A stretch of DNA of 44,106 bases, from assembly GCA_012270885.1 (NCBI GenBank), contig JAAXHN010000085.1, forward strand, positions 1-44,106, in the 5' to 3' direction. The translations under genes and the position numbers were made by a program. The stretch is from Acidimicrobiia bacterium (GTDB lineage Bacteria; Actinomycetota; Acidimicrobiia; Spongiisociales; ZC4RG35). Under the pieces are notes generated by a model. The model searched no databases. It had not been told where the DNA came from and saw only the letters and a list, made by a program, of their open reading frames with translations. This document shows positions 18,028 through 40,974 of this stretch, piece by piece. Within the stretch, counting starts at the first letter, position 1. Each line of letters begins with the position of its first letter.

Positions 18028-18038
18028 ATCTGTCCTGT

Positions 18039-19905: not shown

Positions 19906-20168
19906 CCACTCACCGGTGAGCCGGGTGAAGTTCTCGCCCCTTCTCTTTACTTTTGCAGGGGAGATAGCCAGTCCTTTCCACGCGCCGCCCATCCGTACGG
20001 CAGGGCAGCAGTTTCGAAGCGCTTATCGGTAAGGATAACGACCCAGACCACTACCCGCAGATGCCGTGGACATGCCTTTCAAGCTCCACCCACTCTTGGA
20101 GGAGTCGCATCTGACACCGCAACTATTATCAACTGGCAAGCGCTAGCTCACAACCAAGGAGAGTCACC
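19906..20168. promoter_or_regulatory. Divergent regulatory region between corrinoid operon and M24 gene
   Basis: This 263-bp non-coding stretch separates the minus-strand corrinoid operon from the plus-strand M24 gene. TATTAT at 20124-20129 could be a -10 for the M24 gene, which has AAGGAG (20156-20161) 7 bases before its ATG. A run CTTTACTTTTGCAGGGGAG lies near the corrinoid side. I looked for a cobalamin riboswitch and did not recognise one. No clear operator palindrome is visible. Confidence 0.35.
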
Positions 20169-24205: not shown

Positions 24206-24317
24206 GATCTACACCCTACTTCCGATCCCGAGGCGCCCGGTCCCGTGCGAAAGTGTCACAGGAGGGTGCTTGAATCGGGGGTAAAGAACGGAGCAGAAGC
24301 AGAAACGGAGTGAGAGT

Positions 24318-25385: not shown

Positions 25386-25457
25386 AGCGATCCAGGCCGG
25401 CATTAACCCACCCCAGGCGTCGCTACATCTCAGAAACAGGACAACCCAGGTGAGGGT

Positions 25458-25517
25458 GAGTAGGTCATACCTCTGTACCTGTACTAGCCCTCGGCCGACG
25501 CCGACCTGCGTTTCCTG
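25458..25517 (+). repeat. 60-bp intergenic repeat, copy 1
   Basis: This 60-bp segment occurs again in the same orientation at 41242-41301 with about seven substitutions and no gaps. It begins GAGTAGG and ends GCGTTTCCTG. It lies in the 178-bp spacer between the macro-domain gene and the ABC ATPase gene. The minus strand of both copies can be read as a similar peptide (QETQVGVGR, then QV-RY), which may point to a decayed mobile-element end, but no open gene is associated. Confidence 0.7.
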
Positions 25518-25563
25518 TCCGCCAGCGGTCAGGTAATGAGGTGAAGGGAGCGAAGCGCCGCTC

Positions 25564-26550
25564 TCACCCATTGCCTGTGTGGAGCGGCGCGCCCTTGGGC
25601 TGGATGCAGCGGAATCCGCTGTCCCGGCGCTGGGTCCACTCCACATCGGCTTCGGAACAGGCTCCCACCGCGTGGGCGCATCGGGAGGCAAACCGGCATC
25701 CTATGAATCCGGGCGTCACCCGAGGCGGCGTCCCCTCTATGCCCACCAGCGGCGCTTTCTTCGCCCACATCGGCACCGATCGGAGCAACCCGAGCGTGTA
25801 GGGGTGCCTAGGAGCGGCAATCACCGACGCAGTGGGTCCTTCTTCGACGATCTCACCACCGTACATCACCGCCATACGGGTGCACACTTCCGCGGCCAGC
25901 AGCAGATCGTGAGTCACATAGATCAAAGAATGGCCCATGTCGGTGGCCAATTCCCTCACCAAATCCATAACTTCCGCCTGGGTGGTGACGTCCAGAGCGG
26001 AGGTTGACTCATCGGCGATCACGATCTCGGGTTCGGAGACGATGGCGATCGCGATGGCGGCTCGCTGGCGCATCCCACCCGACAGTTGGTGGGGGTAGGA
26101 TCTCAGCACCCGTTTGGGATCGTGGAATCCCATCCGGGAGATGACCTCTTCAATTCTCCGTTGATGAGCGGCGGCCCTTTGGGCCGACTGGTTGACTCGG
26201 AGAACCTGTCTCATCTGCGTCTTGATCTTCAGCAGTGGATTGAGCGAACTGGAAGCGTTCTGGAACACCATCCCCACATGCCGTCCCCGGAGACGATCCA
26301 GATGGTTCTTTCCGTCTCCGAGCACCTGCTCACCTTGAAAGTAGATTGATCCCTCGGCAATGCGGACGTTGCGTTCGGTGAGTCCCAGCAAGCTTCGAAC
26401 GGCGGTGGTCTTTCCGCTTCCCGATTCCCCGATCAGCCCGATCACGTCCCCGGGATATATGTCCAGATCGAATCTGTCCACGGCCACGATGGTCCCGACC
26501 GAACTGGTGGCCTCCACTCTAAGGGATCGAACGCTCAGCAGAGGATCCAT
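25564..26550 (-). CDS. Oligopeptide/dipeptide ABC transporter ATPase (DppD/OppD type)
   Basis: This protein of 328 residues has Walker A GESGSGKTT, signature LSGGMRQR, Walker B IVIADEST and the switch His in YVTHD. The C-terminal region with CRFASRC and a later Cys matches the oligopeptide transporter ATPase extension, which can bind an Fe-S cluster in this family. ATG 26550 starts MDPLLSVRSLRV, 4 bp after the permease stop; an extension to 26673 overlaps the permease and is not protein-like. It is the last gene of the transporter operon and energises import of the solute caught by the binding protein at 31840-33597. Confidence 0.93.
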   Translation of the reverse strand: MDPLLSVRSLRVEATSSVGTIVAVDRFDLDIYPGDVIGLIGESGSGKTTAVRSLLGLTERNVRIAEGSIYFQGEQVLGDGKNHLDRLRGRHVGMVFQNASSSLNPLLKIKTQMRQVLRVNQSAQRAAAHQRRIEEVISRMGFHDPKRVLRSYPHQLSGGMRQRAAIAIAIVSEPEIVIADESTSALDVTTQAEVMDLVRELATDMGHSLIYVTHDLLLAAEVCTRMAVMYGGEIVEEGPTASVIAAPRHPYTLGLLRSVPMWAKKAPLVGIEGTPPRVTPGFIGCRFASRCAHAVGACSEADVEWTQRRDSGFRCIQPKGAPLHTGNG

Positions 26551-26554
26551 AGCA

Positions 26555-27448
26555 CTATAGATAGGTCCGCTTGCGCGGGTCGTATCGGGCGCGCAACGCA
26601 TCCCCCAGCAGGTTGATGGACATGACCACGGAGGTGATGGCGATTCCCGGGAAAGTGACCACCCACCAAGCATCCTTGATGAACTCTCGGCCGCCGGCCA
26701 GCATCCCGCCCCAACTTATGTCGGGGGGAACTACCCCCAGTCCCAGAAAACTTAGGGCGCTCTCGGCCAGGATCATTGTTCCCACCTCCAGGGTGGCCAG
26801 CACCAAGACAGTGCCACCGATGTTGGGGAAGATGTGGCGGAGAATGATCCTTATGGGCGAAGCGCCCACCGCCCGCAACCCCAGGATGAAAGGCCGCTCC
26901 CGGAGAGACAGAGCCTCTGCCCGGATCACCCGCGCATACTGTGCCCAACTGATGATGGCCAACACTGCCACCAGAACCACCAGGGAACGGCCCCGGCTGA
27001 CGATGATGGCAATGGCCAGAAGGATGAAGGGAAGGGCCAGTTGAGCGTCCACCACCCGGGAGATGATGGTATCAATCCAGCCTCGGCGGTATCCGGCGAT
27101 CATCCCCAGAAGCGTCCCAAACACCGAGCCCACCAGCACCGCCGCGATGGCGATCACGAACGTCAGACGGCCCCCGTAGATGACGCGGGCCAGGAGGTCC
27201 CGACCCAGCTGGTCGGTTCCCAGCGGGTGTTCCCAGGTTCCTCCCTCCAAGAAGATGGGCGGTATCAGCCGTGCCCGCAAGTCCTGCAGGCCGGGATCAG
27301 CGAGGGGTAGAAAAGGAGCGGCCACCACCAGCAGACCCAACAGCAGAAGCGGAAATCCCATGAGCCACAGGGACCTGTTGCCGGACCTACGAATAGTCCT
27401 CGTTTCGCTGTCGGAGACCTCGGCGGTGCAGACTCTTCCCAGCATCAC
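26555..27448 (-). CDS. ABC transporter permease (DppC/OppC type)
   Basis: This 297-residue inner-membrane permease has a cytoplasmic N-terminus, a first transmembrane helix at about 28-48, and the substrate-translocation segment HPLGTDQLGRDLLARVIYGGR characteristic of the C-type subunit of peptide/nickel importers. The EAA loop appears as LRAVGASPIRIILRHIFPN. Five further hydrophobic helices follow. The ATG overlaps the stop of the B-type permease (ATGA), giving the usual DppB-DppC order. The transported solute cannot be deduced from the permease. Confidence 0.93.
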   Translation of the reverse strand: MMLGRVCTAEVSDSETRTIRRSGNRSLWLMGFPLLLLGLLVVAAPFLPLADPGLQDLRARLIPPIFLEGGTWEHPLGTDQLGRDLLARVIYGGRLTFVIAIAAVLVGSVFGTLLGMIAGYRRGWIDTIISRVVDAQLALPFILLAIAIIVSRGRSLVVLVAVLAIISWAQYARVIRAEALSLRERPFILGLRAVGASPIRIILRHIFPNIGGTVLVLATLEVGTMILAESALSFLGLGVVPPDISWGGMLAGGREFIKDAWWVVTFPGIAITSVVMSINLLGDALRARYDPRKRTYL

Positions 27449-28374
27449 GATCCCTGCTCCCGGATGCGGGGATCAATGATCCCATACAGCAGATCCACCG
27501 TGAGGTTGATCACCACGAAGGTGATCGCCCCCACTATCACGATGGCCTGCACCAGGGAGAAGTCCCGGAACTGGACGGCCTGGGTGGCCAGGGTACCGAG
27601 CCCGGGCCAAGCGAACACGAACTCCACGGTGACGGCTCCTGACAGAAGGGTGCCGGCTTGAAGTCCCATGATGGTCACCACCGGCAGGGCGGCGTTGCGG
27701 ATGGCGTGAGTGAACACCACCGTGCGTTCTTTGAGCCCCCGGGCCCGGGCGGAGGTGATGTAGGTCTCCTCCAGCACCTCACTCAGGCTAGACCGCGTCA
27801 ACCGGGCGATCCGAGCCATGGGGAGCACCGATAAAGTCACCGCAGGCAGCACCAGATGCTGCCAGGTCCCCGACAGTCCGGCCGGCAGCCATCCCCAAGC
27901 CACGGCAAACAGGAGAATGAACATCAGGCCCAGCCAAAAGAGCGGGATGGACTGGCCGAATAACGCCACGAACACCGAAATCCGGTCCCATACCTTCCCC
28001 TCCTTCAGTGCCGCCACTATCCCCAGGGGAAGGCCGATCAGAGTGGCTATCAGCATCCCCGCCACCGTCAGCTGAATGGTGGCGGGAAAGCGCCCCAGGA
28101 TCAGCTCCCAGTTGGGACGGCTATACCGCAGTGAGGATCCCAGGTCGAAGGTTGCCAGTTGTCCCAAATAGCTCCCGAACTGGACAGGCAACGGCTTGTC
28201 CAACCCCAGTTCTATCTGCTTCTCCAGCACCTGCTCTTCAGTGGCGAATTCCCCGAGGATGTTGCGGGCCGGATCGCCGGCGGTCCGCGCCAGAAAGAAG
28301 GCCAGACTGAGGGCGATGAGCAGGGTGATCACCGCACCCACCAACTTGGGCGCCATGAACCGCACAAAGGTCAT
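27445..28374 (-). CDS. ABC transporter permease (DppB/OppB type)
   Basis: This protein of 309 residues has a transmembrane helix near the N-terminus (KLVGAVITLLIALSLAFFL), then GDPARN, DKPLPVQFGSYL and FDLGSSLRYSRP segments typical of the B-type permease, an EAA loop (ARARGLKERTVVFTHAIRNA) and a C-terminal YGIIDPRIR. ATG 28374 overlaps the stop of the upstream ATPase gene (ATGA); an in-frame extension to 28398 lies inside that gene. It forms the membrane channel with the C-type permease. Confidence 0.93.
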   Translation of the reverse strand: MTFVRFMAPKLVGAVITLLIALSLAFFLARTAGDPARNILGEFATEEQVLEKQIELGLDKPLPVQFGSYLGQLATFDLGSSLRYSRPNWELILGRFPATIQLTVAGMLIATLIGLPLGIVAALKEGKVWDRISVFVALFGQSIPLFWLGLMFILLFAVAWGWLPAGLSGTWQHLVLPAVTLSVLPMARIARLTRSSLSEVLEETYITSARARGLKERTVVFTHAIRNAALPVVTIMGLQAGTLLSGAVTVEFVFAWPGLGTLATQAVQFRDFSLVQAIVIVGAITFVVINLTVDLLYGIIDPRIREQGS

Positions 28375-29207
28375 GGCGAGTCCGGCCCTTCTCTCCATCC
28401 GTTCGGGCTCTCGATGGACGACCGATCCCAGTCCTTGCCGGGAATGGCGGCTATCAGTTGACGGGTGTATGGATGGGTCGGCGACGCTAGCAACTCCTCG
28501 GTCTCCCCCTCCTCGACGACCCTGCCGTCCTTCATGACATACACCCGGTCACAGAGGTTGCGGACCACGCTCAGGTCATGGCTGATAAGAAGCACGGAGA
28601 CCTTCTCGGATTCCCGCAGTTGCAGCATAAGGTTGAGGATCTGAGCCTGCACCGAGACATCCAAGGCAGAAGTAGGCTCATCAGCCACCAACAGCGAAGG
28701 GCGTAGCAACAGTGCCCGGGCGATGGAGACCCGCTGAGCCTGCCCCCCGCTCAGCTCGTGAGGCAGGTGATCCAGAAGGTCTTCGGTCATGCCCACCTTG
28801 GCCAGAAGTTCGGCGTCAGTAATCCATGTGGAGCGGCCCGGATGAAGAGAACGCAATTCGGAGAGGCCCTTGCGCACGGTTTGTCGCGGATCGAGCGAAC
28901 CATGGGGATCCTGGAACACCACCTGTATCCGGGACCTCAGACGCCGCATTCTCTTGCGGGAGATACCGATGATATCTTCACCCTCCAGGCTTATCCTGCC
29001 ATCGGTGACCCTGCCCAGAAGGGCAGTGGCCAAGGCCAAGGTGGTTTTGCCCGAGCCGGACTCTCCCACCAAACCGACTATCTCACCGGCTTCGATGCAA
29101 AGGGAGACGCCGTCGACTGCCACGACGTCCGGTCTCTTACCGATCCCCCGTTGCGAAAAGACCACCCGGAGGTCTTCGATTTGGAGAACCGGCCGGGCTG
29201 TGCTCAC
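28371..29207 (-). CDS. Oligopeptide ABC transporter ATPase (DppF/OppF type)
   Basis: This 278-residue ATPase has Walker A GESGSGKTT, a Q-loop in VVFQDPHGSLDPRQT (the usual SLNPR is SLDPR), signature ELSGGQAQR, Walker B LLVADEPTSALD and switch His LISHD. It is somewhat shorter than typical OppF, ending soon after HPYTRQLIAAIPG. The GTG start at 29207 follows GAAGGA. It opens the run of four coupled transporter genes and follows the LLM oxidoreductase by 13 bp, so that enzyme is probably in the same transcript. Confidence 0.92.
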   Translation of the reverse strand: MSTARPVLQIEDLRVVFSQRGIGKRPDVVAVDGVSLCIEAGEIVGLVGESGSGKTTLALATALLGRVTDGRISLEGEDIIGISRKRMRRLRSRIQVVFQDPHGSLDPRQTVRKGLSELRSLHPGRSTWITDAELLAKVGMTEDLLDHLPHELSGGQAQRVSIARALLLRPSLLVADEPTSALDVSVQAQILNLMLQLRESEKVSVLLISHDLSVVRNLCDRVYVMKDGRVVEEGETEELLASPTHPYTRQLIAAIPGKDWDRSSIESPNGWREGPDSP

Positions 29208-29220
29208 ATGGGTCCTTCGA

Positions 29221-30291
29221 TCAAAGGCCAGGTTTACGTGGGGATCCCGAAAACCGGGGAACTATTCTCGTTCCGATTTCCCCGATAGTCTCCAGGGTCT
29301 CTTCCAGGCTGGGGCCCTGGAAGTGACGGAGGCGCACGATTATCTCCTCCGGCCCGACGAGTTCAATCCACTTGGGAAGGGTCTCCAACCAATGTTCCAA
29401 GGACCCGCACAGCACCCGATCAGCCAACACATGCTCGACCGTCAAATCAGCCGGACTCGAGAGTTCGGCTAACCACGGCTCGTACCTGGGGTGATAGCTG
29501 TTGCCGCGCTCCATGTAGACCCGGTGGTAGTCGAGGACAAAGTCGCCGTAAGTTTCCCTTGCTGCCAGGTCGGTCTCTCCCAGCCAGGCTTCCCGCAGCA
29601 TGACGATCCGGGGCTTTCTGCCCACCCTCCTGCACTCTTCCCGATACATCTGCGCCAGGTCGGCCAGCCAGTAGATGTTGCGAATCGGCCCGGTGATCCA
29701 CCCGTCGGCGTACCGGGCCGCCCTCCTTACGCCACCCGGCGACCATGCGCCGGCGAAGACCTCTAGTTCCACATCTGCAACTGCCTCGTCCCGGATGGGA
29801 GTCCTACCGCGATAGGGACCGTCCAGCAACACTTCCCGGCCGCCCAGATAGGCGTTGATCGCCTGTAAGCCCTGCTCCATGCGCGCCGCTCTCTGGCCAT
29901 GATCCACACCCATTATCTGGAAGTCCCCCTCCATATAACCGGCACCTACGCATAACCGGAACCGGTCCGGATGGAGTACAGCCAGCATGGTTGCGTCCTG
30001 TACTACCCCCACCGGATGGTGCAAGGGCAGCACCACGAGACCGGCAGAGAACATTATCCCCTCTACTTGCCCCAAGCCATAACCAGAAAGAAGCATGGGG
30101 TTGTGCGAGTAGGAAGTGGCCCCGGAACTGCGCCGCTCGCCGGTGTAAACACAATGGAAGCCGGCCGCCGCTGCCGCGGCGGATTCCTGCAGGAAACCGT
30201 CAAGGTCGTAGCGCCGCCGACCGTTTTGGATGATCTGGTTGGAAGGTGCGATGCTAAAGCGAATAGATGTGTCCGGGCCGACTTGGGACAT
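29221..30291 (-). CDS. LLM-class (F420/FMN-dependent) oxidoreductase A
   Basis: This 356-residue luciferase-like TIM barrel has RFRLCVGAGYMEGDFQIMG, the cofactor-binding turn typical of LLM proteins, VVLPLHHPVGVVQDATML, and the C-terminal CGSLEHWLETLPKWIE-like segment. Such proteins oxidise or mono-oxygenate small substrates with F420 or FMN. It lies immediately upstream of the transporter ATPase on the same strand, so it may act on the imported solute. A paralogue of similar length is at 34799-35845. ATG 30291 has only a weak GGGGG in front. Substrate and cofactor choice are not determinable by eye. Confidence 0.85.
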   Translation of the reverse strand: MSQVGPDTSIRFSIAPSNQIIQNGRRRYDLDGFLQESAAAAAAGFHCVYTGERRSSGATSYSHNPMLLSGYGLGQVEGIMFSAGLVVLPLHHPVGVVQDATMLAVLHPDRFRLCVGAGYMEGDFQIMGVDHGQRAARMEQGLQAINAYLGGREVLLDGPYRGRTPIRDEAVADVELEVFAGAWSPGGVRRAARYADGWITGPIRNIYWLADLAQMYREECRRVGRKPRIVMLREAWLGETDLAARETYGDFVLDYHRVYMERGNSYHPRYEPWLAELSSPADLTVEHVLADRVLCGSLEHWLETLPKWIELVGPEEIIVRLRHFQGPSLEETLETIGEIGTRIVPRFSGSPRKPGL

Positions 30292-30364: not shown

Positions 30365-31780
30365 TTGGAATACCAGGATTACGACGCGATAGGACTGGCA
30401 GAGTTGGTGCGTGGTGGAGAAACGACTCCCACCGAGTTGTTAGACACCGCCATTGAGCGGATCGAGACTTTGAATCCGGTGATCAATGCGGTGAACCGCA
30501 AGATGTACGACGAGGCCAGGGCTTCGATCGAGCGGGGCCTTCCCGACGGACCCTTCACCGGGGTTCCCTTTCTGCTCAAGGATCTCCGGGCGGCTTATGA
30601 GGGGGTTCCTACCACGGCGGGCAGCGCGTTTTTTGCGGACAAGGTGGCGCCGCATGACAGTGAACTGGTGAGCCGCTACCGGAATGCGGGGCTGGTGATC
30701 GCCGGCAAGACCAACACCCCCGAGTTCGGAGGAGCGCCCACCACCGAACCCAGCCTATACGGCCCCACCCGCAACCCCTGGAACCTCGAACATTCCAGTG
30801 GCGGCTCGAGCGGCGGCTCCGCGGCGGCGGTGGCGGCGGGGATCGTCCCGGCCGCTCATGGAAGTGACGGAGGCGGGTCGCTGCGCATTCCGGCGGCGTG
30901 CTGTGGAGTGTTCAGTCTCAAACCCACCCGGGGGCGGAACCCGGCCGGACCCGATTTCGGCGAAGCCTGGAACGGACTGAGCGCCGAGCACGTTATAAGC
31001 CGCACCGTCCGGGACAACGCGGCGCTCTTAGACGCCACCACCGGCCCTTCTCCGGGCGATCCATATTCGGTGCCGCCATCCGAGTATTCGTTTCTGGCCT
31101 CGGCCAGACGTCCTCCCGGACCGCTTTCAGTAGCCCTCACCACTTCCACCGCGGCGGGATCTGCCCATCGAGACTGCGTGGATGCGGTGAAAAAGACCGC
31201 CGACCTGCTGGAGGAAATGGGCCACAGGGTCACCGAGGACAGTCCGGAATGGGACCGTCCCACGGTGGGCGCCGCCTTCCGATTGCTCATTGCCGCCAAT
31301 GTCATGGCGGGAATTGACGAATATGCCGAGCAGAAAGGCCGACGCCCACATGATCACGAATTGGAGAACGTCATCCGGGTACTGGGAGGAGAAAGCTATG
31401 ACTCCACCTCGATAGACATGGTAAGAGCCACTTGGGCGATGCACCGGGCCGGTCGGGCGGTGGCGCCCTTCTTCCAGAAATACGACGTCTGGTTGACCCC
31501 GACGGTGGCGACACCACCACCACCACTGGGCCTCATCGACATGACCACCGAAGACATCGACGCCTATCTGGTGACGGTCTTCGGGTTCATCCCGTTCACC
31601 GCCATCGCCAACATCGCCGGGATACCGGCCATGTCGGTCCCCATCCACTGGAACGCCGACGGTTTGCCGATCGGAGTCCACTTCGTGGCCGGTTACGCCC
31701 GAGACAGCCTGCTCTTCAGCCTGGCCGGGCAACTGGAAGCAGCCCGGCCCTGGGCCGACCGTCGTCCACCAATCTGCTAG
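30365..31780 (+). CDS. Amidase-signature hydrolase (second amidase)
   Basis: This 471-residue amidase has K72 in GVPFLLKDL, cis-serine S148 in [15 protein letters not shown] and nucleophile S172 in [12 protein letters not shown]. The SDGGGS form, with Gly where Thr is common, is seen in 6-aminohexanoate-cyclic-dimer-hydrolase-like amidases. The C-terminal part [20 protein letters not shown] is typical. The TTG start at 30365 follows GAAAGGAG. The gene stands on the plus strand between the transporter's binding protein and its permease/ATPase block, both on the minus strand. That suggests the imported solute is an amide, by context. It is not closely similar to the amidase at 1341-2747. Confidence 0.9.
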
Positions 31781-31839: not shown

Positions 31840-33597
31840 CTACTCCTGGAAGTAGAGACCCTCGTAGTCGATCTGAAGGTCCAGTCGCTGGTGGAACCCG
31901 CCCAGACCCGTCGTGTACGCAAAGTTGTCCACCTGGTCGTATATGGAGACCCAACAGACCAAGTCGATCAAGACGATCCGCTCCACCTCGCTGTAGGCGG
32001 CGATGCGCTCCTCTTCGGTCTGTGCCGTGGCACCGATGGTCGCCAGGTCATCCAACCGGTCGCTGGTGCAGGCCTTCACCAAACCGGCGGAGGTGAAGGT
32101 GGTCCGCATGAAGACATCCTCGTGCGGATAGCGAACGTCGAATGGCAACTGGTGAGTACCGCCCAGTTGATTGGTGAACAAGGCAACGATGAACTCCCCC
32201 GGCTCAAGAGCCCGAGCCTCCAAAGGCAGTCCCACCGCCTCCAACATTCCTACCACTGCTTCTCCCATGTCCTTGTCGCTGATGTAGCGACCGACCGTGT
32301 AGTTGATCGGAATCGGCGGTATATCGCCCTCGGCCTGAACTTCGGCGACCAATTCCCTTGCCCGGTCCGGGTCGTACGGGTAATAGTCGTCTGCATGCCT
32401 ACCGGTGCTGGAGAAGAAGTTGTGGAAGGCGTTGGGGTTGGCTATGCCGCCCCTTCCCTCCAGCACTCCTCCTACCAGGGCTTCCCGATCTATGGCATGA
32501 GCGATTGCCTGGCGGAGACGGATGTCATCCAACGGCGGAGCGTGGATATTGATGCCCATGAAGAACTTGTTACCTCCAGGCGCGGCGGAGAGAACCAGAC
32601 TGTCGTCCCCCTCAACGTCGTCGAAGAGCTGGGGTGACAGGGTGACGATCATGTCGGCGTCGCCGGTTTGCAGGAGCGCCAGACGAGTGTTGGCGTCAGG
32701 AGCCCATGTCCACTCCACGCCATCGAGATTGGGAGCGCCGTTCCAATAGTCCTGGTTGGCCGAAGCGCTGATCATCTCCCCCGGGATCCACTCCTCGAAC
32801 ACCAGCGGACCAGTGCCGACCGGCGCCAGACCGAATTCCTCGGCGCCCACTTCCGCCAGGTAGGCGGGCGGGAAAACAAAGGTTTCGGTAAGCAGGGCTG
32901 GAAGCAACCCGATACCCGTCTCCGTGGTAGTGATGATCTCAAATGTTGTGTCGTCGATGGCTTGGGCGTCGGCGATCAGGGTGAAATAGACCCGCAGCCC
33001 GCCGGTGTCGCGGTTGGCGCGCACCGAGGCGGCCGCCGCTTCAGCGTTGAACGGCTCACCGTTGTGGAACGAGACGCCTTCCCGCACCGTGAACCGCCAA
33101 GTGAGTCCATCCACCTGCTCGTAGGCGGTGATCAAACCACTCGGTTCCGGATGGTTGTTCACATCCTTCTCCATGAGAACATCGATGATTCCCCGCGAGA
33201 TTTGCTGTGCGAAGCGAGATGTTGCAATGGAGGGATTGAGAGATTTAGGTTCGGTTCCGATCACCATCCGCAGAATGCCCCCATCCACCTTGGTGGGTCC
33301 TGCCTGCGTGGTCTCGGTCACCTCCTCTTCCATCTCCTCCTCTTCCTCTTCCATCTCCTCCATTTCCTCTTCCATCTCCGGCGCAGCCGTGGTGGTTGTA
33401 GTGGCGCGGGTTGTGGCAGTGGTGGTTTCGGGGGTGGGTTCCTCCGCCGCGGTAGTGGCGGTGGTTGTGTCCGGCTGGGCGGCGCCGGTGGTGGCCGGCT
33501 GCTCCTCGTCATCACCGCATGCGGCCACCAGCAAGGCCAGCGTGGCCAGGACCGCTATCAGCTTCACATGTGAAATATGGCGGTTTCTCAACCTCAT
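31840..33597 (-). CDS. Solute-binding lipoprotein, family 5 (peptide/nickel type)
   Basis: This 585-residue extracellular substrate-binding protein has a lipoprotein signal with lipobox VAAC (C27), then a Thr/Ala-rich linker (about 37-71) and a Glu/Met-rich run (74-93), before the family-5 fold begins near ILRMVIGTEPKSLNPS (109-123). Later motifs DGLTWRFTVREGVSFHNG and LRQAIAHAIDREALV are standard for the family. It captures the solute and delivers it to the DppBCDF-like importer at 25564-29207. GGAG precedes ATG 33597. The linker is much longer than needed for a lipid-anchored binding protein and may span the cell-wall layer. Confidence 0.92.
   Translation of the reverse strand: MRLRNRHISHVKLIAVLATLALLVAACGDDEEQPATTGAAQPDTTTATTAAEEPTPETTTATTRATTTTTAAPEMEEEMEEMEEEEEEMEEEVTETTQAGPTKVDGGILRMVIGTEPKSLNPSIATSRFAQQISRGIIDVLMEKDVNNHPEPSGLITAYEQVDGLTWRFTVREGVSFHNGEPFNAEAAAASVRANRDTGGLRVYFTLIADAQAIDDTTFEIITTTETGIGLLPALLTETFVFPPAYLAEVGAEEFGLAPVGTGPLVFEEWIPGEMISASANQDYWNGAPNLDGVEWTWAPDANTRLALLQTGDADMIVTLSPQLFDDVEGDDSLVLSAAPGGNKFFMGINIHAPPLDDIRLRQAIAHAIDREALVGGVLEGRGGIANPNAFHNFFSSTGRHADDYYPYDPDRARELVAEVQAEGDIPPIPINYTVGRYISDKDMGEAVVGMLEAVGLPLEARALEPGEFIVALFTNQLGGTHQLPFDVRYPHEDVFMRTTFTSAGLVKACTSDRLDDLATIGATAQTEEERIAAYSEVERIVLIDLVCWVSIYDQVDNFAYTTGLGGFHQRLDLQIDYEGLYFQE
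33313..33378 (-). repeat. Glu/Met-coding low-complexity repeat in binding-protein gene
   Basis: The DNA is a run of CTC/TTC/CAT triplets (plus strand) that encodes an irregular EMEEE-type series at residues 74-95 of the binding lipoprotein. Its triplet structure makes slippage and length variation between strains likely. It keeps the reading frame. Confidence 0.75.
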
Positions 33598-33638
33598 CGT
33601 CTTCTCCTTACTTGGCTGTGTATCTAAATGTCAACCAG

Positions 33639-33656
33639 GTGACGGAAATGCGTCAC
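33639..33656. promoter_or_regulatory. Inverted repeat upstream of the binding-protein gene
   Basis: GTGACG (33639-33644) and CGTCAC (33651-33656) form a perfect 6-bp inverted repeat with a 6-bp spacer GAAATG. It lies about 40 bp before the binding-protein start and beside a TTGACA (minus strand, 33634-33629). It is a candidate operator for a dimeric regulator of solute uptake. No regulator gene is present in the window. Confidence 0.35.
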
Positions 33657-33720
33657 ACACCGGCCGGTATCAGTCATCCCTAGCTTATAACCCCAAATCT
33701 TGTGAGGGGTCTGCCAGGGG

Positions 33721-34728
33721 CTATGGCCTTCCGGGCGTGGGTATCGTTCTGCCTGGCCAACCCACCGCATAGGTGTACTCTCCCGGCTGCACGATAGCCG
33801 GCCGGGCCGGCGCCAACATGAGGAAAGGCTCTTCGGTGACGGTGAACTCCTTCATCGGTCCAGGCCCCCACAACTCGAATCCCGGACCCATTCCGGCCTG
33901 CGACCCGATCTCGTCAACTATGAACTCCTCTATGCGCTCTCCCGTCACAAGATCCGTTACCCATCCCACCGGACCAGCCTCTGCCCTTATACCTACCTGG
34001 GACGGTCCGTATCGCCCGTCGAGCGCTCCGGCGTGAGAAGCCAGGAACACTTTCACCTGATCCAGAATCGCCACCTGATCGGGGCCGGTTGGATGGGAGT
34101 CGAGATGACCCCGGTATCTCAGGGTGTTCAGGCATCCCTCCACACCCAGCGTAGGGTCGTTTGACTCCCCTCCTCCGAACTCGGCCAGGAAAGAGGACCC
34201 CCCGGCGGCCGTCACCGCCTGGCTGAGTTGACCGGGGACGTGCCGGTTGATCACCACCGGCAGATAGCCGAACGAGGCACTGAGATCCAGGTCACCATAG
34301 TCGTAGGTGTAATGCAATCCCCGGCCGGGGGTTCCGGAGTGAAGATCGACGACACAGTCGGCTTCCTCCAATAGGGCCGAAATCAAAGCATGCGCCACCT
34401 GGTCGGTGAGGAACCCGGCGGGCCGACCGGGAAACCGCCGGTTTAGTTGCATGCGATCGGGATTATGTCGAGTGCCGGCGGCGAGACCGAACAGGTTGGA
34501 CGCAGGGACCAGGGTCACAGTCCCGGCAAGGTCGGAACCGAGTAGGCGCTTCCGAAGTTCGTGGACCGCCAGGACCGCCAGGGGCTTGTCCCCTATCAGA
34601 CCCGCCGCGATGGCGGTAGCCGGCCCGGGCCGGGAACCGGCCAACCGATGGAACCGGATCTTCCAGGTTCCACCGTCCATCCGGCGAGCACCCGTCTCGA
34701 CCTCATAGATCGTTTCGCCTACGCTCAT
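33721..34728 (-). CDS. Aspartoacylase/succinylglutamate desuccinylase-like protein with altered zinc site
   Basis: This 335-residue protein has the M14-like AspA fold. LNRRFPG (95-101), VVDLHSG (H130 as third zinc ligand) and FLAEFGGG (catalytic Glu) are all present. The first zinc motif, normally GxHGxE, reads AAGLIGDKPL at residues 41-50, with I45 in place of His and K48 in place of Glu. Two of the three zinc ligands are thus missing while the rest of the family signature is intact. Members deacylate N-acyl amino acids or related amides; this one may use another mechanism or only bind ligand. AAGGAG precedes ATG 34728. It lies between LLM oxidoreductase B and the binding protein on the same strand. 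Confidence 0.83.
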   Translation of the reverse strand: MSVGETIYEVETGARRMDGGTWKIRFHRLAGSRPGPATAIAAGLIGDKPLAVLAVHELRKRLLGSDLAGTVTLVPASNLFGLAAGTRHNPDRMQLNRRFPGRPAGFLTDQVAHALISALLEEADCVVDLHSGTPGRGLHYTYDYGDLDLSASFGYLPVVINRHVPGQLSQAVTAAGGSSFLAEFGGGESNDPTLGVEGCLNTLRYRGHLDSHPTGPDQVAILDQVKVFLASHAGALDGRYGPSQVGIRAEAGPVGWVTDLVTGERIEEFIVDEIGSQAGMGPGFELWGPGPMKEFTVTEEPFLMLAPARPAIVQPGEYTYAVGWPGRTIPTPGRP

Positions 34729-34770
34729 TTATCTGCTCCTTGTATAGCTGTTCTGTAGCCGGAGTTCGCG

Positions 34771-34814
34771 AAAAAATTTGACCTCCCCGCGGTGCTTTTC
34801 AAACAAACCGCGGG
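34771..34814 (-). terminator. Possible terminator after LLM oxidoreductase B
   Basis: CCCGCGGT (34786-34793) and ACCGCGGG (34807-34814) form an 8-bp stem whose loop contains the LLM stop codon. On the minus strand a T6 run (34776-34771) follows about 10 bases after the stem. The gap weakens the call. Confidence 0.4.
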
Positions 34815-35845
34815 ATTATTTCGCGGCCGATGCACTCTATCACCCGCAGGGTGTCATGTGGGGACGGACCGCTCTGGAAGCGCAGGCGCAGCACTATCTC
34901 TTCGGGTTGGATGCGCTCAATCCAGCCCTGGAGCAGCTCCAGCCATGTATCCACTGACCCGATCATGAACCGGTCCTCCAGCAGATGGTGCAGCGCCAGT
35001 TCCTCTTTGCGGTCGATTTCTCTCAGCCACGGATCGACACCCACGTCGTAAGGCTTGCCTTCTCCCGTCCCCAGGCTCTTCCAGCCACCCTCCATCCGCG
35101 GGAAGTACTCGGCATGGGCGTGGATCACGTGCGGGCCGTACTCGGCCCGGGCCTGCTGATCGGTGTCGGCCAGCCACGCCTCCCTCAACAATCCGATGCG
35201 GGGTTCCTTCCCGTGCTTTCTGCATTCCTCCCGATATATCTCGGCCAACTCGGCCACCACCTTCCCGGTGCGCATCGGGTCGGGCAACCACCCATCAGCC
35301 AGACGGGCGGTCCTTCGGACTCCCTCCCTGGCCCAGGACCCGACCCAGACTTCCGGCATGTGTGGACCCATAGCCGGATCGAGGGCCGGCACGGGTCCTC
35401 TCCCCACGTCGATGTGGATCTCTCCGTTTCGGAAGGAGTTGATGAGCCGTAGGCCCTCCTCCATGTCCCGACCCCGGCGGGATAGTTTCTTACCGAACAT
35501 CTCGAAGGCATGCTCGTTATAGCCCGCACCCACCCCCAGCCGGAACCTGCCCGGATAGAGAGAGTTGAGAACCGTGGCGTCCTGAATCACCTGATACGGG
35601 TCCCGCAACGGCAGTTGCACAACGGTGACCGCGAAGTTCAACCGTTTGGTCGCCTGCAGAGCCGAGGCAGCCAGGACATGGGGGCTGGTCGTATAGGCCG
35701 TCACCCCGATCCTTCTCTCCCCGACCACCACCGAGTAGAACCCTGCCCGCTCGGCAGCCTGGCATTCCGCTATAAACGCGTCGAAGTCGAACTCGTAACG
35801 TCCGTTGACTATCCGCTGCAACGGTACAGCCAGGCTAAACCGCAT
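34799..35845 (-). CDS. LLM-class (F420/FMN-dependent) oxidoreductase B
   Basis: This 348-residue luciferase-like protein has GRFRLGVGAGYNEHAFEMFG, VVQLPLRDPYQVIQDATVL, EVWVGSWAREGVRRTARLADGW and IYREECRKHGKEPRIGLLREAWL. It is colinear with LLM oxidoreductase A (29221-30291), sharing many blocks, so the two are paralogues. GGGAGG lies 4-5 bases before ATG 35845. It is downstream of the mutase-ligase-P450 cluster, with a 162-bp gap, and upstream of the aspartoacylase-like gene. It probably catalyses an F420- or FMN-dependent redox step in the same catabolic programme; substrate unknown. Confidence 0.86.
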   Translation of the reverse strand: MRFSLAVPLQRIVNGRYEFDFDAFIAECQAAERAGFYSVVVGERRIGVTAYTTSPHVLAASALQATKRLNFAVTVVQLPLRDPYQVIQDATVLNSLYPGRFRLGVGAGYNEHAFEMFGKKLSRRGRDMEEGLRLINSFRNGEIHIDVGRGPVPALDPAMGPHMPEVWVGSWAREGVRRTARLADGWLPDPMRTGKVVAELAEIYREECRKHGKEPRIGLLREAWLADTDQQARAEYGPHVIHAHAEYFPRMEGGWKSLGTGEGKPYDVGVDPWLREIDRKEELALHHLLEDRFMIGSVDTWLELLQGWIERIQPEEIVLRLRFQSGPSPHDTLRVIECIGREIIPRFV

Positions 35846-36007
35846 GCATCCTCCCGTAGGCCACCCGGGAATCTGGATGGCGCTGTGAGTGCTCGTGTCT
35901 CACCAGGTCATAGCTGGGGCGAGTCGATCCCGCTCCTGACGCTTCCTGATGGCGACCAATGACTGTCTCCTCTAGGTGGGAACCTTGTGGAAAGGGCGTT
36001 CTCCAGC

Positions 36008-37288
36008 CTAATGCCGGGAACTTGCCCGCTCCGGGTTAACTCCCCCGGACACAACTTCAAAGGTGACAGGTAACTCTTCTAGCAGCATGAACTGAAAGTG
36101 AGGGCGGCGGCGGAACTCGGTGGCCGCCAGATGGATCGGGTCGAAGCGCCGGAGCAACTCGCCGATCGCTATCTGCGTCTCCAGGCGAGCCAGGGGAGCG
36201 CCCAAGCAGAGGTGGCGTCCCCCTCCGAAGGAGAGGTGCTTGATGTCGGGGCGCCGGATGTCGATCCGGTCGGGATGCTCGTAGAGATCAGGATCCCGAT
36301 TGGCGGCCGCGATCAGCGCCAGGACCCGCTCGCCGGGCAACATCCGCTCTCCGTCCACTTCCCATACGGTGGTCAGGTAACGATAGTGGGCATGGACTGG
36401 GGACTCCCAGCGTAGGAACTCCTCCACCGCGTTGGGTACGAGTTCCGGACGGGACCTCAACAGAGCCATCTGATCGGGATTCTGCAGCAACCCCAGAACC
36501 ATGGAACCGATCAGCCCCATGGTGGTCTCGAACCCGGCAGTGATCAGCCCCCGCAGGGTAGCGATCAACTCGTCCCGAGAGAGCCGGTCGCCCGCCTCCT
36601 CCAAAGCCACCAGATGCGAGGTGAGATTGTCGGTGGGCGAATTCCGATGACGATCCACCAAGGCGCCCAGATACTCGATGAAGTTGGCGCAGGCGCGGTG
36701 GCATAACTCGATGCCCTCTTCGTCATTGGCGTCGGGAACGAACATCCGCAGCAGATCGGGAGTCCACTCCATAAGCAGGTCCCAGTCGCTGTCGGGTATG
36801 CCCAGCAGCCCGCAGATAACCCGCATGGGGACCACCATGGCGAACTCCGACATCACCTCCATCTCGCCTCGCGGCTCCACTGCGTCCAGCGCCTCTGTGA
36901 CGATCTGTCCCACTACCGGACGGAAGCGGGCCGTGGCGCGGGGAGTGAATGCCGGGGAGAGAAGGCGACGCAGGCGGGTGTGGTCGGGAGGGTCGGACAT
37001 GGAGATGCTGTGCGCCCACATCCGGGCCGCCGGGCCGTCGCGGATCACCGCGGGGATCTCTCCTCCTGGAGACCGCATCCGGGAGGACGGGTTCCCCAGG
37101 ACTGACGCCGCATCCCGGAACTTGCTCACCACCCGGGCGCCACCGTCGCCCAGGGTGGCGCGGCCAACCGGGCACTCCTGCCGGAGGCGCTTGTAAACCG
37201 CATAGGGATCGGCCAGAAAGCCGGGGTCGGTGGGATCGTAGACGATCGACGGCTTCGTGTCCCCGTTCCCGGCTGAGCCTTGTTGCAT
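36008..37288 (-). CDS. Cytochrome P450
   Basis: This 426-residue class I-type bacterial P450 has the heme-binding loop FGGGRHLCLGAPLARLE with C361. The ExxR pair is E290/R293 (EEFLRW). The I-helix oxygen-activation motif reads AGFETTMG at 251-258, with Glu at the usual Asp position. SDPPDHTRLRRLLSPAFTP, typical of actinobacterial CYPs, is at 98-116. No ferredoxin or reductase gene is adjacent. GGGGAG precedes ATG 37288, 16 bp after the acyl-CoA ligase stop, so the gene is probably in the mutase operon. It could hydroxylate a branched or aromatic acid before CoA activation; that role is inferred. Confidence 0.92.
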   Translation of the reverse strand: MQQGSAGNGDTKPSIVYDPTDPGFLADPYAVYKRLRQECPVGRATLGDGGARVVSKFRDAASVLGNPSSRMRSPGGEIPAVIRDGPAARMWAHSISMSDPPDHTRLRRLLSPAFTPRATARFRPVVGQIVTEALDAVEPRGEMEVMSEFAMVVPMRVICGLLGIPDSDWDLLMEWTPDLLRMFVPDANDEEGIELCHRACANFIEYLGALVDRHRNSPTDNLTSHLVALEEAGDRLSRDELIATLRGLITAGFETTMGLIGSMVLGLLQNPDQMALLRSRPELVPNAVEEFLRWESPVHAHYRYLTTVWEVDGERMLPGERVLALIAAANRDPDLYEHPDRIDIRRPDIKHLSFGGGRHLCLGAPLARLETQIAIGELLRRFDPIHLAATEFRRRPHFQFMLLEELPVTFEVVSGGVNPERASSRH

Positions 37289-37304
37289 CGTTGTCTCCCC
37301 GGAG

Positions 37305-38903
37305 CTAATCCCTGCTCATTGCCCGGAGTTCCCGTTTGAGAATCTTGCCCTGGGTATCGATGGGAAGGTTCTCAACCAGATGCACCGCCTTGGGAACCTT
37401 GTAACCCGCCAGAGACCTCTTGCAGTGGGCGATAACCGCCTCCGCATCCACCTCGACGCCGGGCTGGGTCACCGCGAAGGCCGTGACCGCCTCCGACCAG
37501 TACTCGTCAGGAACTCCCACCACCGCGACCTGCAAGATCCCCGGATAGCCATAGAGCACCCGCTCGACCTCCTGGCTGGAGACGTTCATGCCGCCGCTCT
37601 TGATCATGTCCTTCTTACGGTCGAAGAAGAACAGGTTCCCATCATCGTCGATTCTCACCAGGTCGCCGGTCCGGAGCCACCCGTCCCGGAACGCCTCGGC
37701 GGTCTTCTCCGGGTCGTCGTAGTATCCGACCATCGCCGAGGGAGACCGACAGGCCAACTCGCCGATCTCGGAGGGCTGATCATTCTCGTCGAACACTGCT
37801 ATCTCCAGTTGAGGAACCGGCTTCCCTATCCAGGTAGGGTCACCGCCGGGGACCTCATCCAGGCTACGGAACCAGCCCACCGAGCCCAACTGGGTGAGTT
37901 CGGACTGGCCCCAATAGGTGGCCCACAGCACATCGGGGTTGGCCTTGTTCCATCCGTCCAACATGGCTTGGGGAACCGTACCTCCGTAGGTGATGCATCG
38001 GCGCAGGCTTGAGAAGTCGTAGTCCTCGAAGCCCTCCACCTGGGTCATGGCCAGATAGAACGTCGGCGTCTGGGCCATGATGGTGACCTTTTCGTCCGAC
38101 ATCATCGCGGCCGCCTTGGGAGGATCGACCGAGTGAACCAACACCAACGTGGCACCCAGCAGGGTGAGGGTGGTCATGCTCCCCAGACCCGCGATCGTAA
38201 AAAACGGCATCAGGAACAGCCAGATCTCGTCCGGGGCGATCCCCAGGGCCGATTGCCAGGCGGGGGTGGTGGAGATCAGATAGTTGCGATGGGAGATCAT
38301 CACCCCCTTGGGATAGGCCTCGGTACCGCTGGTGTACTGGATGATGGCCAAGTCGTTTTCTCCCACTTGCGCGTCCGGCTCGGAGGCGTCCCGGTCTTCA
38401 CCCACCAGCGTGGAGATGCGAGTCCAACCCTTCGGCCCTGCGTCGGAGACAACATCTGAAACCATAAAGTGTTCCACCCCGGCCAGTTGTTCGGCGATGG
38501 GAACGAAACGATCCACGAACACCGACTCCACCACTATCACCTTGGGCTGGCAGTGATCTACCTGATAGGTGATCTCCCGGGCTGTAAAAGTGAAGTTGAT
38601 GCCGGTCAATGCCGCGCCCAGCTTGATGGTGGCGTAGTAAATCGCCACGTAGTCAGGGCTGTTGCGGGACATGATTGCCACCACGTCACCCCTTCCCACC
38701 CCCCGCTCCGAGAGAGCATGGGCCAGACGGTTGACCATCCGGTTCAGCGACCGGTAAGTGTGCACCTCCCGGTCGCCCTCGGTGGTGTAGAAGATCAGGG
38801 CCGGCTTTGAGGGCTGCAGTTTGGCATTTCGCCGCAACTGGTCCCCGATGGTGGCGCGGCCAATGATGGTATCCCGCTGGTGGGTGCCGGTATCAACGTT
38901 CAT
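37305..38903 (-). CDS. Acyl-CoA ligase (AMP-binding, class I adenylate-forming)
   Basis: This protein of 532 residues has the P-loop-like A3 motif QYTSGTEAYPKGVMISH (from about 189), YWGQSE (A5), GWLRTGDLVRIDDDG (A7), FFDRKKDMIKSGGMNV (A8) and the C-terminal catalytic Lys in DTQGKILKREL. It activates a carboxylic acid to its CoA thioester with ATP. ATG 38903 is chosen because GGAGG lies 7 bases upstream; an ATG at 38927 overlaps the previous gene and lacks an RBS. It follows the two mutase subunits directly, which resembles clusters where a ligase supplies the mutase with its acyl-CoA, for example 2-hydroxyisobutyrate degradation. Substrate not identified. Confidence 0.92.
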   Translation of the reverse strand: MNVDTGTHQRDTIIGRATIGDQLRRNAKLQPSKPALIFYTTEGDREVHTYRSLNRMVNRLAHALSERGVGRGDVVAIMSRNSPDYVAIYYATIKLGAALTGINFTFTAREITYQVDHCQPKVIVVESVFVDRFVPIAEQLAGVEHFMVSDVVSDAGPKGWTRISTLVGEDRDASEPDAQVGENDLAIIQYTSGTEAYPKGVMISHRNYLISTTPAWQSALGIAPDEIWLFLMPFFTIAGLGSMTTLTLLGATLVLVHSVDPPKAAAMMSDEKVTIMAQTPTFYLAMTQVEGFEDYDFSSLRRCITYGGTVPQAMLDGWNKANPDVLWATYWGQSELTQLGSVGWFRSLDEVPGGDPTWIGKPVPQLEIAVFDENDQPSEIGELACRSPSAMVGYYDDPEKTAEAFRDGWLRTGDLVRIDDDGNLFFFDRKKDMIKSGGMNVSSQEVERVLYGYPGILQVAVVGVPDEYWSEAVTAFAVTQPGVEVDAEAVIAHCKRSLAGYKVPKAVHLVENLPIDTQGKILKRELRAMSRD

Positions 38904-38923
38904 CTGTTTCCTCCTTGCCTTTG

Positions 38924-39364
38924 TCATGCAGGCGTCACATCTCCCTTGCTTCCCCGCCGGACCTCAACCAGGCGCCTGGCCTGTTCGACAATGTCCGAAA
39001 ACATAGATCCGGGGGGAAAGGTGGAGATCCCCCGGACCTCCAGAGCGGAGCGGTGCTGGGGCTGGATCGTCCCCCCGAGCATCACCCCGACGTCGGGAGC
39101 GGAAACGTCCAACTTATCGAGGATCCGCATCACCACCGCCAGACTACCTCCAACGTTCAAGCCGACCAGGTCGACGTCCTCCTGAACAGCCGCCGCCGCT
39201 ATCTCATCCGCAGTGGCCATCCCCAGATAGATCACCTCAAAGCCGGCGTCCCGGAGGACATGGACCACCACCGCCGGACCGCGCCAATGGCCGTCTAGGG
39301 CCGTCTTGGCAAACAGGACTTTGCCGGGCTGGTCAACGTTCAAAATGAGATCGGCACCTTCCAA
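38924..39364 (-). CDS. Small B12-binding subunit of an acyl-CoA mutase
   Basis: This protein of up to 146 residues is a single cobalamin-binding domain: VLFAKTALDGHWRGPAVV carries D24, H26 and G29 of the DxHxxG motif. LVGLNVGGSL and VGVMLGGTI (the GG motif) follow. Separate small subunits of this size pair with large subunits in isobutyryl- and 2-hydroxyisobutyryl-CoA mutases. The start is uncertain: TTG 39364 lies inside the large-subunit gene, and TTG 39343 overlaps its TGA as TTGA. In both cases translation should be coupled to the large subunit. The base-off His ligand is intact, so B12 binding is expected. Confidence 0.9.
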   Translation of the reverse strand: MEGADLILNVDQPGKVLFAKTALDGHWRGPAVVVHVLRDAGFEVIYLGMATADEIAAAAVQEDVDLVGLNVGGSLAVVMRILDKLDVSAPDVGVMLGGTIQPQHRSALEVRGISTFPPGSMFSDIVEQARRLVEVRRGSKGDVTPA

Positions 39365-40974
39365 TCGCCGAACACCTCGCTGAACACATCTCCGAACTCA
39401 CCCAGGGTGGCCTGAGCAGCCACCGCTTCCATCACCGCCGGCATGATGTTGGCATCTCCGCGGCATGCGGTCTCCAAGTCTCTCAAGGCGGTGGCGGCCG
39501 CCCTGCCGTCCCGTTCCCGCCGCACCAGCCGCAATCTTTCCATCGACTTCCCCCAAACCCCCTCCACCGGTTCGAAGCCGGTCATCTCCCATGGTGTTAC
39601 ATCCTCAACAAAGGCGTTTACCCCCACCATTTTCCTGTCCCCCCGGTTGACCGCTTCGGCCAGATCCAGCTGATTGCCAGCCGCCAGGTCATGGAGCCAA
39701 CCCTCGTCCAGAACGGCCGCGAATCCGCCTCGGCTCTCGATCTCCTCGAACATCTCCCAGGCTCTGGTCTCCAACTCGGCGGTGAGTGCCTCCACATAGT
39801 GCGACCCGCCCAGAGGGTCCGCTACCGCCGGGATGTTGGTCTCATGATGGATGATCTGTTGGATGCGAAGAGACATCTGATGGGCGTGCTCAGAGGGGAT
39901 CGACATGGCCTCGTCATAGGTGGCCACCCCCAGGGACTGGGTACCCCCTAACACCGAGGCCATCGCCATGATGGTTCCCCGGGCGATGTTGTTGAGAGGC
40001 TGCTGGTAAGCAAGGGCCGATCCGGCGGTGACGATGTGGATCCGAAGCCGGGCGGCGCGGGCGTCCGCGACTCCGTACCGACGCCGCAGCAACTCGACCC
40101 ACATCTTCCGGGCGGCTCGCATCTTGCAGATGTCCTCGAAGAAGTCCATCCCCACCCGCAGGTTTATTCCTCCCACCATGTAGGCCAGGCGTGTCAGGCT
40201 CTCGGGCGTCCGCCGGTTGATCTCGTCCAGGTACACCGCCGCGTTGGCGAACAGGGCGGCCAGTTCCTGGTAGGCGTTCAGTCCGGTGTCGGCCGCGTTG
40301 TAGGCGGCGATCGACACCGGAACCCATCGAGGCAGATAGCGTCCGCAGAACTCAATGATATCTGTGTTGAGGCGGATCCCGGCTTCGGTAGGAATCTGGC
40401 GTTTGGGGATGCAGCCCAGGTAGGTGAGGAAGAAGTCACTCTGCCCGGTGCCGGAAAGCCTGGAGAGATCCAGGCCCCGGCGGCTGGCCACCGTCCAGTA
40501 GCAACCGAGAGCAAAAGGGGCGTGTTGGACCACTGCTCCTCCCGGGTGAGCGTAGTAATGACCCATGTCGATCCCGTCCAGGATCGTCTCGTAGTCCCGG
40601 ACGCTTTGGATCACCGCTCCTGTCTGTCCCACGTCTTCGCGCCTGGCCACCACCTCGGGGTGATCTACGTTGTAGAGATGGTCGGCGGTGTTGCGGTCGT
40701 GCTCCATGATGAAGCCGGTCTCACCTTGACTCAATAGGAACAGGATTCGCTCCCGCTCATCCTCGGGATTGCCATGCCCGCTCAGTTGGAACACCCTCCA
40801 GGGTTTGGTCCGGTACATACCCGGATACGCGCCTCGAACGTACGGAGGGACACCGGGCGATCCCGCTCCCGCTTCCCGGGCCGGGGAAGGAACGTCTTCG
40901 GGGCCGTACCAACCTCTGAGCGGGATCCCCGAAGCAGTAAAGTACCGATCGGCGTCGGCTTGCTCAGAACTCAT
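39340..40974 (-). CDS. Large subunit of an atypical B12-dependent acyl-CoA mutase
   Basis: This 544-residue protein has the methylmalonyl-CoA-mutase catalytic barrel without a B12 domain, which the next gene encodes. YRTKPWRVFQ, SGTGQSD, VGGINLRVGMDFFEDI, PLNNIARGT and GGTQSLGVATYDEA fix the family. Key positions differ. The tyrosine that stacks on the substrate (Y89 in Propionibacterium numbering) is L64. The active-site His of the GYH motif (H244) is N226. The segment that normally carries the substrate-carboxylate Arg (VRNTY) reads LTYLGCIP. Methylmalonyl-CoA is therefore an unlikely substrate. It leads an operon with the small subunit, an acyl-CoA ligase and a P450. No MeaB-type GTPase chaperone is present nearby. 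Confidence 0.88.
   Translation of the reverse strand: MSSEQADADRYFTASGIPLRGWYGPEDVPSPAREAGAGSPGVPPYVRGAYPGMYRTKPWRVFQLSGHGNPEDERERILFLLSQGETGFIMEHDRNTADHLYNVDHPEVVARREDVGQTGAVIQSVRDYETILDGIDMGHYYAHPGGAVVQHAPFALGCYWTVASRRGLDLSRLSGTGQSDFFLTYLGCIPKRQIPTEAGIRLNTDIIEFCGRYLPRWVPVSIAAYNAADTGLNAYQELAALFANAAVYLDEINRRTPESLTRLAYMVGGINLRVGMDFFEDICKMRAARKMWVELLRRRYGVADARAARLRIHIVTAGSALAYQQPLNNIARGTIMAMASVLGGTQSLGVATYDEAMSIPSEHAHQMSLRIQQIIHHETNIPAVADPLGGSHYVEALTAELETRAWEMFEEIESRGGFAAVLDEGWLHDLAAGNQLDLAEAVNRGDRKMVGVNAFVEDVTPWEMTGFEPVEGVWGKSMERLRLVRRERDGRAAATALRDLETACRGDANIMPAVMEAVAAQATLGEFGDVFSEVFGDWKVPISF

Follow-up and report, generated by a model that had tools for sequence, protein, structure and literature searches.

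An acyl-CoA-mutase-type enzyme with asparagine for the active-site histidine, encoded with a CoA ligase and a P450 in an Acidimicrobiia bacterium: a candidate new specificity class

The contig JAAXHN010000085.1 of an Acidimicrobiia bacterium (assembly GCA_012270885.1), analyzed here over its whole 44,106 nucleotides (the window), carries on its minus strand, at positions 31840-40974, a group of genes that includes the large subunit of a relative of methylmalonyl-coenzyme A mutase (MCM; coenzyme A, CoA). In this protein and its close relatives the active-site histidine of MCM is replaced by asparagine, and almost all other positions that usually hold the substrate have changed as well. We consider it probable (roughly 0.68) that the large subunit and its cobalamin-binding (B12) partner form a two-subunit carbon-skeleton mutase dependent on adenosylcobalamin (AdoCbl), which would belong to a new specificity class and act on a CoA-activated acid derived from an oxygenase reaction. 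The genes are the following:

39340..40974, minus strand: mutase large subunit with TIM-barrel substrate domain, 544 amino acids (PF01642, 443 bits; TIGR00641 above cut-off)
38924..39364, minus strand: cobalamin-binding subunit with the motif AKTALDGHWRG (PF02310 and TIGR00640 above cut-off)
37305..38927, minus strand: AMP-forming acyl-CoA ligase, 540 amino acids (PF00501 and PF13193)
36008..37288, minus strand: cytochrome P450, 426 amino acids (PF00067)
34799..35845, minus strand: luciferase-like flavin (F420/FMN) oxidoreductase (PF00296; TIGR03619 below cut-off)
33721..34728, minus strand: zinc deacylase of the AstE/aspartoacylase/DoeB type (PF24827; weak match to the DoeB model)
31840..33597, minus strand: family-5 (oligopeptide/nickel type) solute-binding protein (PF00496)

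Profile searches and the sequence itself agreed with the coordinates and identities that an earlier, sequence-only reading had given for the first four genes, which are packed tightly into a single operon. The stop codon of the large subunit overlaps the start of the B12 subunit as TTGA, the B12 subunit and the ligase overlap by 4 nt (ATGA), and 16 nt separate the ligase from the P450. The reading frame of the B12 subunit opens at 39364, and the TTG at 39343, which overlaps the large-subunit stop, is the likelier start. The luciferase-like oxidoreductase is a probable continuation of the operon; gene order is identical in locus L005, and the family is found upstream of the mutase in L006, L007 and L008. 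The deacylase is kept together with the mutase in L005, L006 and L008, and the solute-binding protein, whose position is kept in two genomes of the same genus (L078, L079), is probably the transport part of the operon's pathway. Since the genome, a 2.6-Mb draft, has only about four P450 genes, the P450 in the mutase operon is unlikely to be there by chance. The metagenome-assembled genomes (MAGs) of the nearest relatives, labelled bacterium or Acidimicrobiia bacterium, would come from sponges, judging by their isolate names.

The large subunit is built on the barrel of the MCM superfamily, with 443 bits against a cut-off of 22.1 for PF01642 and 367 against 303.8 for TIGR00641. Its AlphaFold2 model (46 homologues; pLDDT 85, pTM 0.89) matched best, among structures in the PDB, the 2-hydroxyisobutyryl-CoA mutase (HCM) 4r3u (TM 0.92, Z 46.4, root-mean-square deviation 2.3 over 528 residues; Foldseek and VIA-align), followed by MCMs (Z about 45), the fused isobutyryl-CoA mutase (ICM) IcmF (Z about 38) and, more weakly, glutamate mutase and aminomutases (about 21). 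The B12 subunit, adjacent to the mutase in 46 of 46 subfamily loci, keeps the DxHxxG motif that had been read from its letters: the full K-x3-DxHxxG signature of the cobalamin domain is present, as DGHWRG within AKTALDGHWRG. Its D, H and G are found in 35 of 35 B12-subunit homologues and its K in 34 of 35.

Residues of the large subunit are compared here in the numbering of P. shermanii MCM, with the register taken from a HMMER alignment to solved structures. The equivalence of L64 with Y89, the substrate-stacking tyrosine of MCM, is fixed because the aligned chain of 5req is the Y89F mutant of the P. shermanii enzyme. This alignment upheld the three replacements proposed in the sequence-only reading. 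Leucine (L64) occupies position 89 and asparagine (N226) replaces H244, each in 58 of 58 subfamily sequences, while R207, the arginine of the carboxylate-binding segment, pairs with C188 (HMMER) or I189 (MAFFT). The segment around it reads YLGC-I-P-K-R-Q-I-P; the adjacent R192 is not family-wide, and K191 is common (54/58). The residues cited for the known enzymes at position 89 (Tyr in MCM, Phe in ICM, Ile in HCM) held when checked on sequences, the full combinations being Y89/R207/H244 in MCM, F89/Q207/H244 in ICM-like proteins and IcmF, and I89/Q207/H244 in HCM (4r3u and L150). A placement of Tyr, His and Arg at their normal MCM positions, which that reading had named as its own undoing, was found neither in the sequence nor in the fold. 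In window numbering, the signature residues are K57, R60, F62, L64, I89, H92, R94, D98, C188, N226, V315 and G349.

Judged from the alignment, the remodelling of the active site had been understated, as T85R, R87F, S114I, F117H, L119R, S285G, Q330V and H364G accompany the replacements already named. A residue table set 58 distinct members of the subfamily against 37 other sequences. T85R, R87F, Y89L, S114I/L, L119R, R123D, H244N, Q330V/L and H364G were present in all 58 and F117H in 56, a constancy beyond what chance would give. T195, Q197, D199, Y243, H328, Q361, D369 and E370 were kept in all 58, and K/R is retained at position 82. An invariant R273 lies on the predicted strand 269-274, where R283 of MCM is without a conserved counterpart. 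His244 itself is present in all 17 reference rows. Our assignment of positions to contacts with CoA, acyl group or corrin is carried over from MCM; T85, R87, S114, R283 and S285 are those that we take to bind the CoA arm there.

The proteins that share these features are 56-97% identical to the window protein; other mutases reach at most 38%, and a search of 60 genomes without a stringent cut-off recovered nothing between the two bands. The subfamily is monophyletic, with 100/100 support, in a maximum-likelihood tree built from 42 sequences with references for MCM, ICM, IcmF and HCM. Two further mutases, L096 and L098, may be ethylmalonyl-CoA mutases (ECM), but no model names them as such. The subfamily spans Acidimicrobiia (18 of 395 genomes), another actinobacterial lineage, and Alpha- and Gammaproteobacteria. 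It occurs in about a fifth (29/140) of the genomes from the family of a Halieaceae MAG, and in 3/337 alphaproteobacterial genomes, 3/321 gammaproteobacterial genomes and 2/346 Actinomycetota genomes, the latter drawn across the phylum; these last three counts include the seed genomes. A plasmid search gave no subfamily member among the matches listed, the best being about 36% identical. This scattered distribution suggests horizontal transfer, and the occurrence of identical replacements in at least three bacterial classes probably marks a separate enzyme group. The ratio of nonsynonymous to synonymous change against a 90%-identical orthologue (dN/dS) is 0.0545/0.887 = 0.061: the large subunit is kept by purifying selection and is not decaying. 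Together with the model that matches HCM, this value points to a maintained enzyme.

Two subfamily members are encoded in the genome, the second (60% identical) on another contig (L002/L061), as well as an ordinary MCM, L001, with Y89/R207/H244; the MCM duty is thus already covered. The second copy (L061:8564-17971) lies in an operon, conserved within the genus, with a B12 subunit, a CoA ligase, a class-III aminotransferase, a luciferase-like oxidoreductase and two further proteins, one of the OB-fold ChsH2 type and one thiolase-like. The operon also encodes a sulfoacetaldehyde acetyltransferase that passes the cut-off of the Xsc equivalog model. For the second copy, these neighbours suggest a sulfonate or taurine conjugate as a possible substrate. 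Such a substrate was not adopted for the subfamily, since Xsc was found neither in the window operon nor among the neighbours that recur in other clades.

Other unusual mutases were seen outside the subfamily. One on a plasmid of Marinobacter sp. M3C (L149:2911-4566) keeps Y89, R207 and H244, has A243, V330 and F364, and adjoins a CoA transferase and an enoyl-CoA hydratase; it is possibly a mutase of the arylsuccinyl-CoA type. A very divergent mutase with L89, F244 and a very long tree branch was found in the alphaproteobacterial genome G402 (L099:1504-3033), with a similar match in G398, and both genomes also contain the new subfamily. The Acidimicrobiia mutases L026 and L031 have the normal H244 and R207, along with H328F, Q330G and changes at 364-366, and possibly represent a further specificity class.

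The genes that surround subfamily members were compared in 46 loci, of which some are one locus fetched twice, so that the counts are not independent. Within 9.5 kb, a CoA ligase was found in 43 loci, a luciferase-like monooxygenase in 31, MeaB in 25, a P450 in 23 and an acyl-CoA dehydrogenase in 14. MeaB is a G-protein that services AdoCbl mutases (PMC10356863), and its presence beside many subfamily genes argues for real AdoCbl enzymes; in the window's genome it is encoded elsewhere. The window ligase shares 45-90% identity with the ligases of many Acidimicrobiia, about 33% with those beside the second copy, and about 24-29% with the ones in Halieaceae and most other proteobacterial loci. 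Ligases at subfamily loci thus fall into at least three unlike groups, which indicates that the association of mutase and ligase is probably functional and has more than one origin. Halieaceae share a conserved divergent cluster, one arm of which holds a TonB receptor, a P450, a luciferase-like monooxygenase, a ligase, a TetR regulator and an iron alcohol dehydrogenase, and the facing arm the mutase, the B12 subunit and MeaB; in some of these clusters an acyl-CoA dehydrogenase and an enoyl-CoA hydratase come next. In the Acidimicrobiia loci L067, L066 and L069 the mutase stands beside a sugar-type ABC transporter (Peripla_BP_4, RbsA-like and RbsC-like components), and some loci of this type also have a nitroreductase-family protein.

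Elsewhere in the window, past an opposite-strand amidase, positions 22596-30291 hold four oligopeptide-type ABC transporter genes (two permeases and two ATPases), a second luciferase-like oxidoreductase, a metallo-beta-lactamase-fold protein and a flavin reductase. Amidases lie at 1341-2747 and 30365-31780, and with the transporter cluster they resemble an island for the catabolism of an imported amide. Genes at 14988-19992 encode a Pterin_bind protein, a corrinoid activation protein of the RACo type, a corrinoid protein (B12-binding and B12-binding_2) and a URO-D family protein, and look like a corrinoid-dependent methyltransferase or demethylation system.

These patterns can be arranged into a possible pathway. 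Oxidation by the P450 and the flavin monooxygenase, perhaps with cleavage of an amide by the deacylase, would yield a carboxylic acid, which the CoA ligase, to judge from the operon and its recurrence, would activate. The acyl-CoA would then enter the barrel, with AdoCbl supplied by the B12 subunit through the histidine of DxHxxG. Homolysis of the Co-C bond would generate the adenosyl radical; migration of the CoA-thioester carbonyl group would follow in the manner of ICM and HCM, as family chemistry and fold suggest. Hydrogen bonds to the thioester carbonyl may now come from Asn226 together with the retained Gln178 (Q197). The rearranged acyl-CoA would pass to beta-oxidation, for which some Halieaceae loci carry the acyl-CoA dehydrogenase and enoyl-CoA hydratase downstream. 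Y89L, R207C/I, H244N, Q330V, S285G and H364G mostly bring smaller or non-ionic groups into the pocket, while R85, R119, H117 and the invariant R273 are new. Consequently, the enzyme probably takes a bulkier acyl group than MCM, ICM or HCM do, one without a free carboxylate held as in MCM. The data show family, fold, cobalamin motif, residue signature, selection and gene association; a CoA ester as substrate, acyl migration, a larger acyl pocket and carbonyl binding by Asn226 and Gln178 are inferred. A camphor- or terpenoid-like pathway, which the combination of P450, luciferase-like monooxygenase and ligase might suggest, was set aside.

Several observations weigh against this assignment. His244 binds the thioester, and without it catalysis by P. 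shermanii MCM is severely impaired (an H244A structure exists, 1e1c). Several positions that presumably bind the CoA arm have changed, so that the binding of CoA may be altered or lost, and three loci are without a nearby ligase. Furthermore, substitutions are not significantly concentrated at ligand positions (7/12 changed versus 55/134 elsewhere, p=0.36, in family-invariant columns of the 17 reference rows with a ligand list after UniProt P11653); clustering at ligand positions is therefore not used as support. The substrate might be no CoA thioester at all and be a free or otherwise carrier-bound acid held by the new arginines and histidine, with the ligase acting downstream. T85R, R87F, S114I, S285G and the loss of R283 fall on the presumed CoA-binding positions, and R85, R119 and R273 are new and invariant, with H117 nearly so. 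However, K/R82, T195, Q197, H328 and Q361 are retained, and a CoA substrate or product accounts more readily for the close, repeated pairing with unlike ligases; we regard a non-CoA substrate as unlikely. The missing thioester-binding histidine, and the glutamate mutase and aminomutases among the weaker fold matches, could also speak for an AdoCbl radical chemistry other than 1,2 acyl migration, such as an elimination or the shift of an amino or other group. No PLP-binding (pyridoxal phosphate) or aminomutase feature was seen in support of it, and MCM and HCM are by far the nearest folds (Z 45-46 versus about 21), making this the least probable reading considered.

An ordinary mutase in disguise, acting on isobutyryl/butyryl-, pivalyl/isovaleryl-, 2-hydroxyisobutyryl/3-hydroxybutyryl- or methylmalonyl/succinyl-CoA, would fit the facts that the closest solved relative is HCM and that an HCM locus likewise combines mutase, B12 subunit, ligase and MeaB. 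It is distinctly unlikely for a separate clade at most 38% identical to all reference classes, in which the H244 shared by MCM, ICM, IcmF and HCM is invariably Asn, and which coexists with an ordinary MCM in the window's genome and with a fused IcmF-type gene in a genome of the same genus. The many replaced catalytic positions might instead mark a degenerate, non-catalytic paralogue with a structural or regulatory role, like MutA of heterodimeric MCM, a type of subunit that does exist in the family. We consider this very improbable and rejected it: every one of the 46 loci has its own B12 subunit, no second large subunit stands alongside in the loci laid out, the replacing residues are invariant, Y243 and E370 persist along with the cobalamin motif, and dN/dS is 0.06. 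The reading that we prefer remains that of a two-subunit AdoCbl mutase of new specificity. The earlier proposal of a distinct acyl-CoA-mutase-type enzyme with a new active-site combination thus stands, on clade support, selection and gene association, while its link to tertiary-alcohol and 2-hydroxyisobutyrate degradation is supported only as an analogy.

To our knowledge, only a handful of natural reactions have been assigned to this family, those of MCM, ECM, ICM (including pivalyl), HCM and the phenylsuccinyl/benzylmalonyl conversion. The last is documented in the literature (PMC8360864). A clade with histidine exchanged for asparagine would add a new reaction and probe how far the chemistry of the family needs His244. 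It is an even bet, in our view, that marine and sponge-associated bacteria hold a further class of B12 acyl-mutase, with Asn for the catalytic His and a rebuilt substrate channel, that performs an undescribed rearrangement of a bulky acid derived from an oxygenase reaction, for example one with a ring or a quaternary carbon. Annotation pipelines would probably label these genes methylmalonyl-CoA mutase, a label that is probably wrong. In one study every rational first-shell change in an HCM abolished activity (PMC11599936), so a pocket rebuilt by nature would be a useful engineering guide. We found no description of the subfamily in the open-licence literature searched, and other papers may describe it.

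Compared with the known systems, the window protein is a member of the MCM superfamily by profile, fold and cobalamin motif and is not placed in any named class, as it lacks the residue signatures of MCM, ICM and HCM and the histidine found in every reference examined. With MCM (human MMUT, P. shermanii MutB, L001) it shares the barrel, the logic of cobalamin binding, and T195, Q197, Y243, H328 and E370. However, Y89, R207 and H244 are all replaced (L64, C188/I189, N226), it belongs to a separate clade, and the MCM equivalog model PRK09426 gives 320.7 bits against 876, a score that separate subunits lower. ICM (IcmA-like L088 and L151, named by residues only) and IcmF (5cjw, 5cjv), which also takes pivalyl- and isovaleryl-CoA, are alike in fold and in having no carboxylate-binding Arg207, but they carry F89, Q207 and H244; IcmF is fused whereas the subunits here are separate, and the window protein scores 115 bits against an IcmF cut-off of 1500. 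HCM (HcmA/HcmB, 4r3u) comes closest, as the best PDB match (sequence E 2.6e-90), also with two separate subunits, and with a relative, L150, that lies with a ligase and MeaB. Note however that it is about 32% identical, that 4r3u groups with L150 outside the subfamily, and that its I89, Q207, H244, T85, R87, S114 and Q330 are all replaced here. Operons for tertiary alcohols and 2-hydroxyisobutyrate combine a tertiary-alcohol monooxygenase and an aldehyde dehydrogenase with HCM; the window operon has a P450, a luciferase-like oxidoreductase, a deacylase and a solute-binding protein instead. The flavin monooxygenase, deacylase, solute-binding protein and nearby oligopeptide-type transporter point away from a small tertiary alcohol, and the link is only an analogy, resting on the mutase, B12 subunit, ligase and MeaB set common with the HCM locus L150. 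A precedent for rearranging a bulky acyl-CoA is IaaGH of indoleacetate degradation, a B12-dependent benzylmalonyl-CoA (phenylsuccinyl-CoA) mutase whose catabolic operon also encodes a CoA ligase (PMC8360864). By its description, it differs in that its substrate is a dicarboxylic CoA ester.

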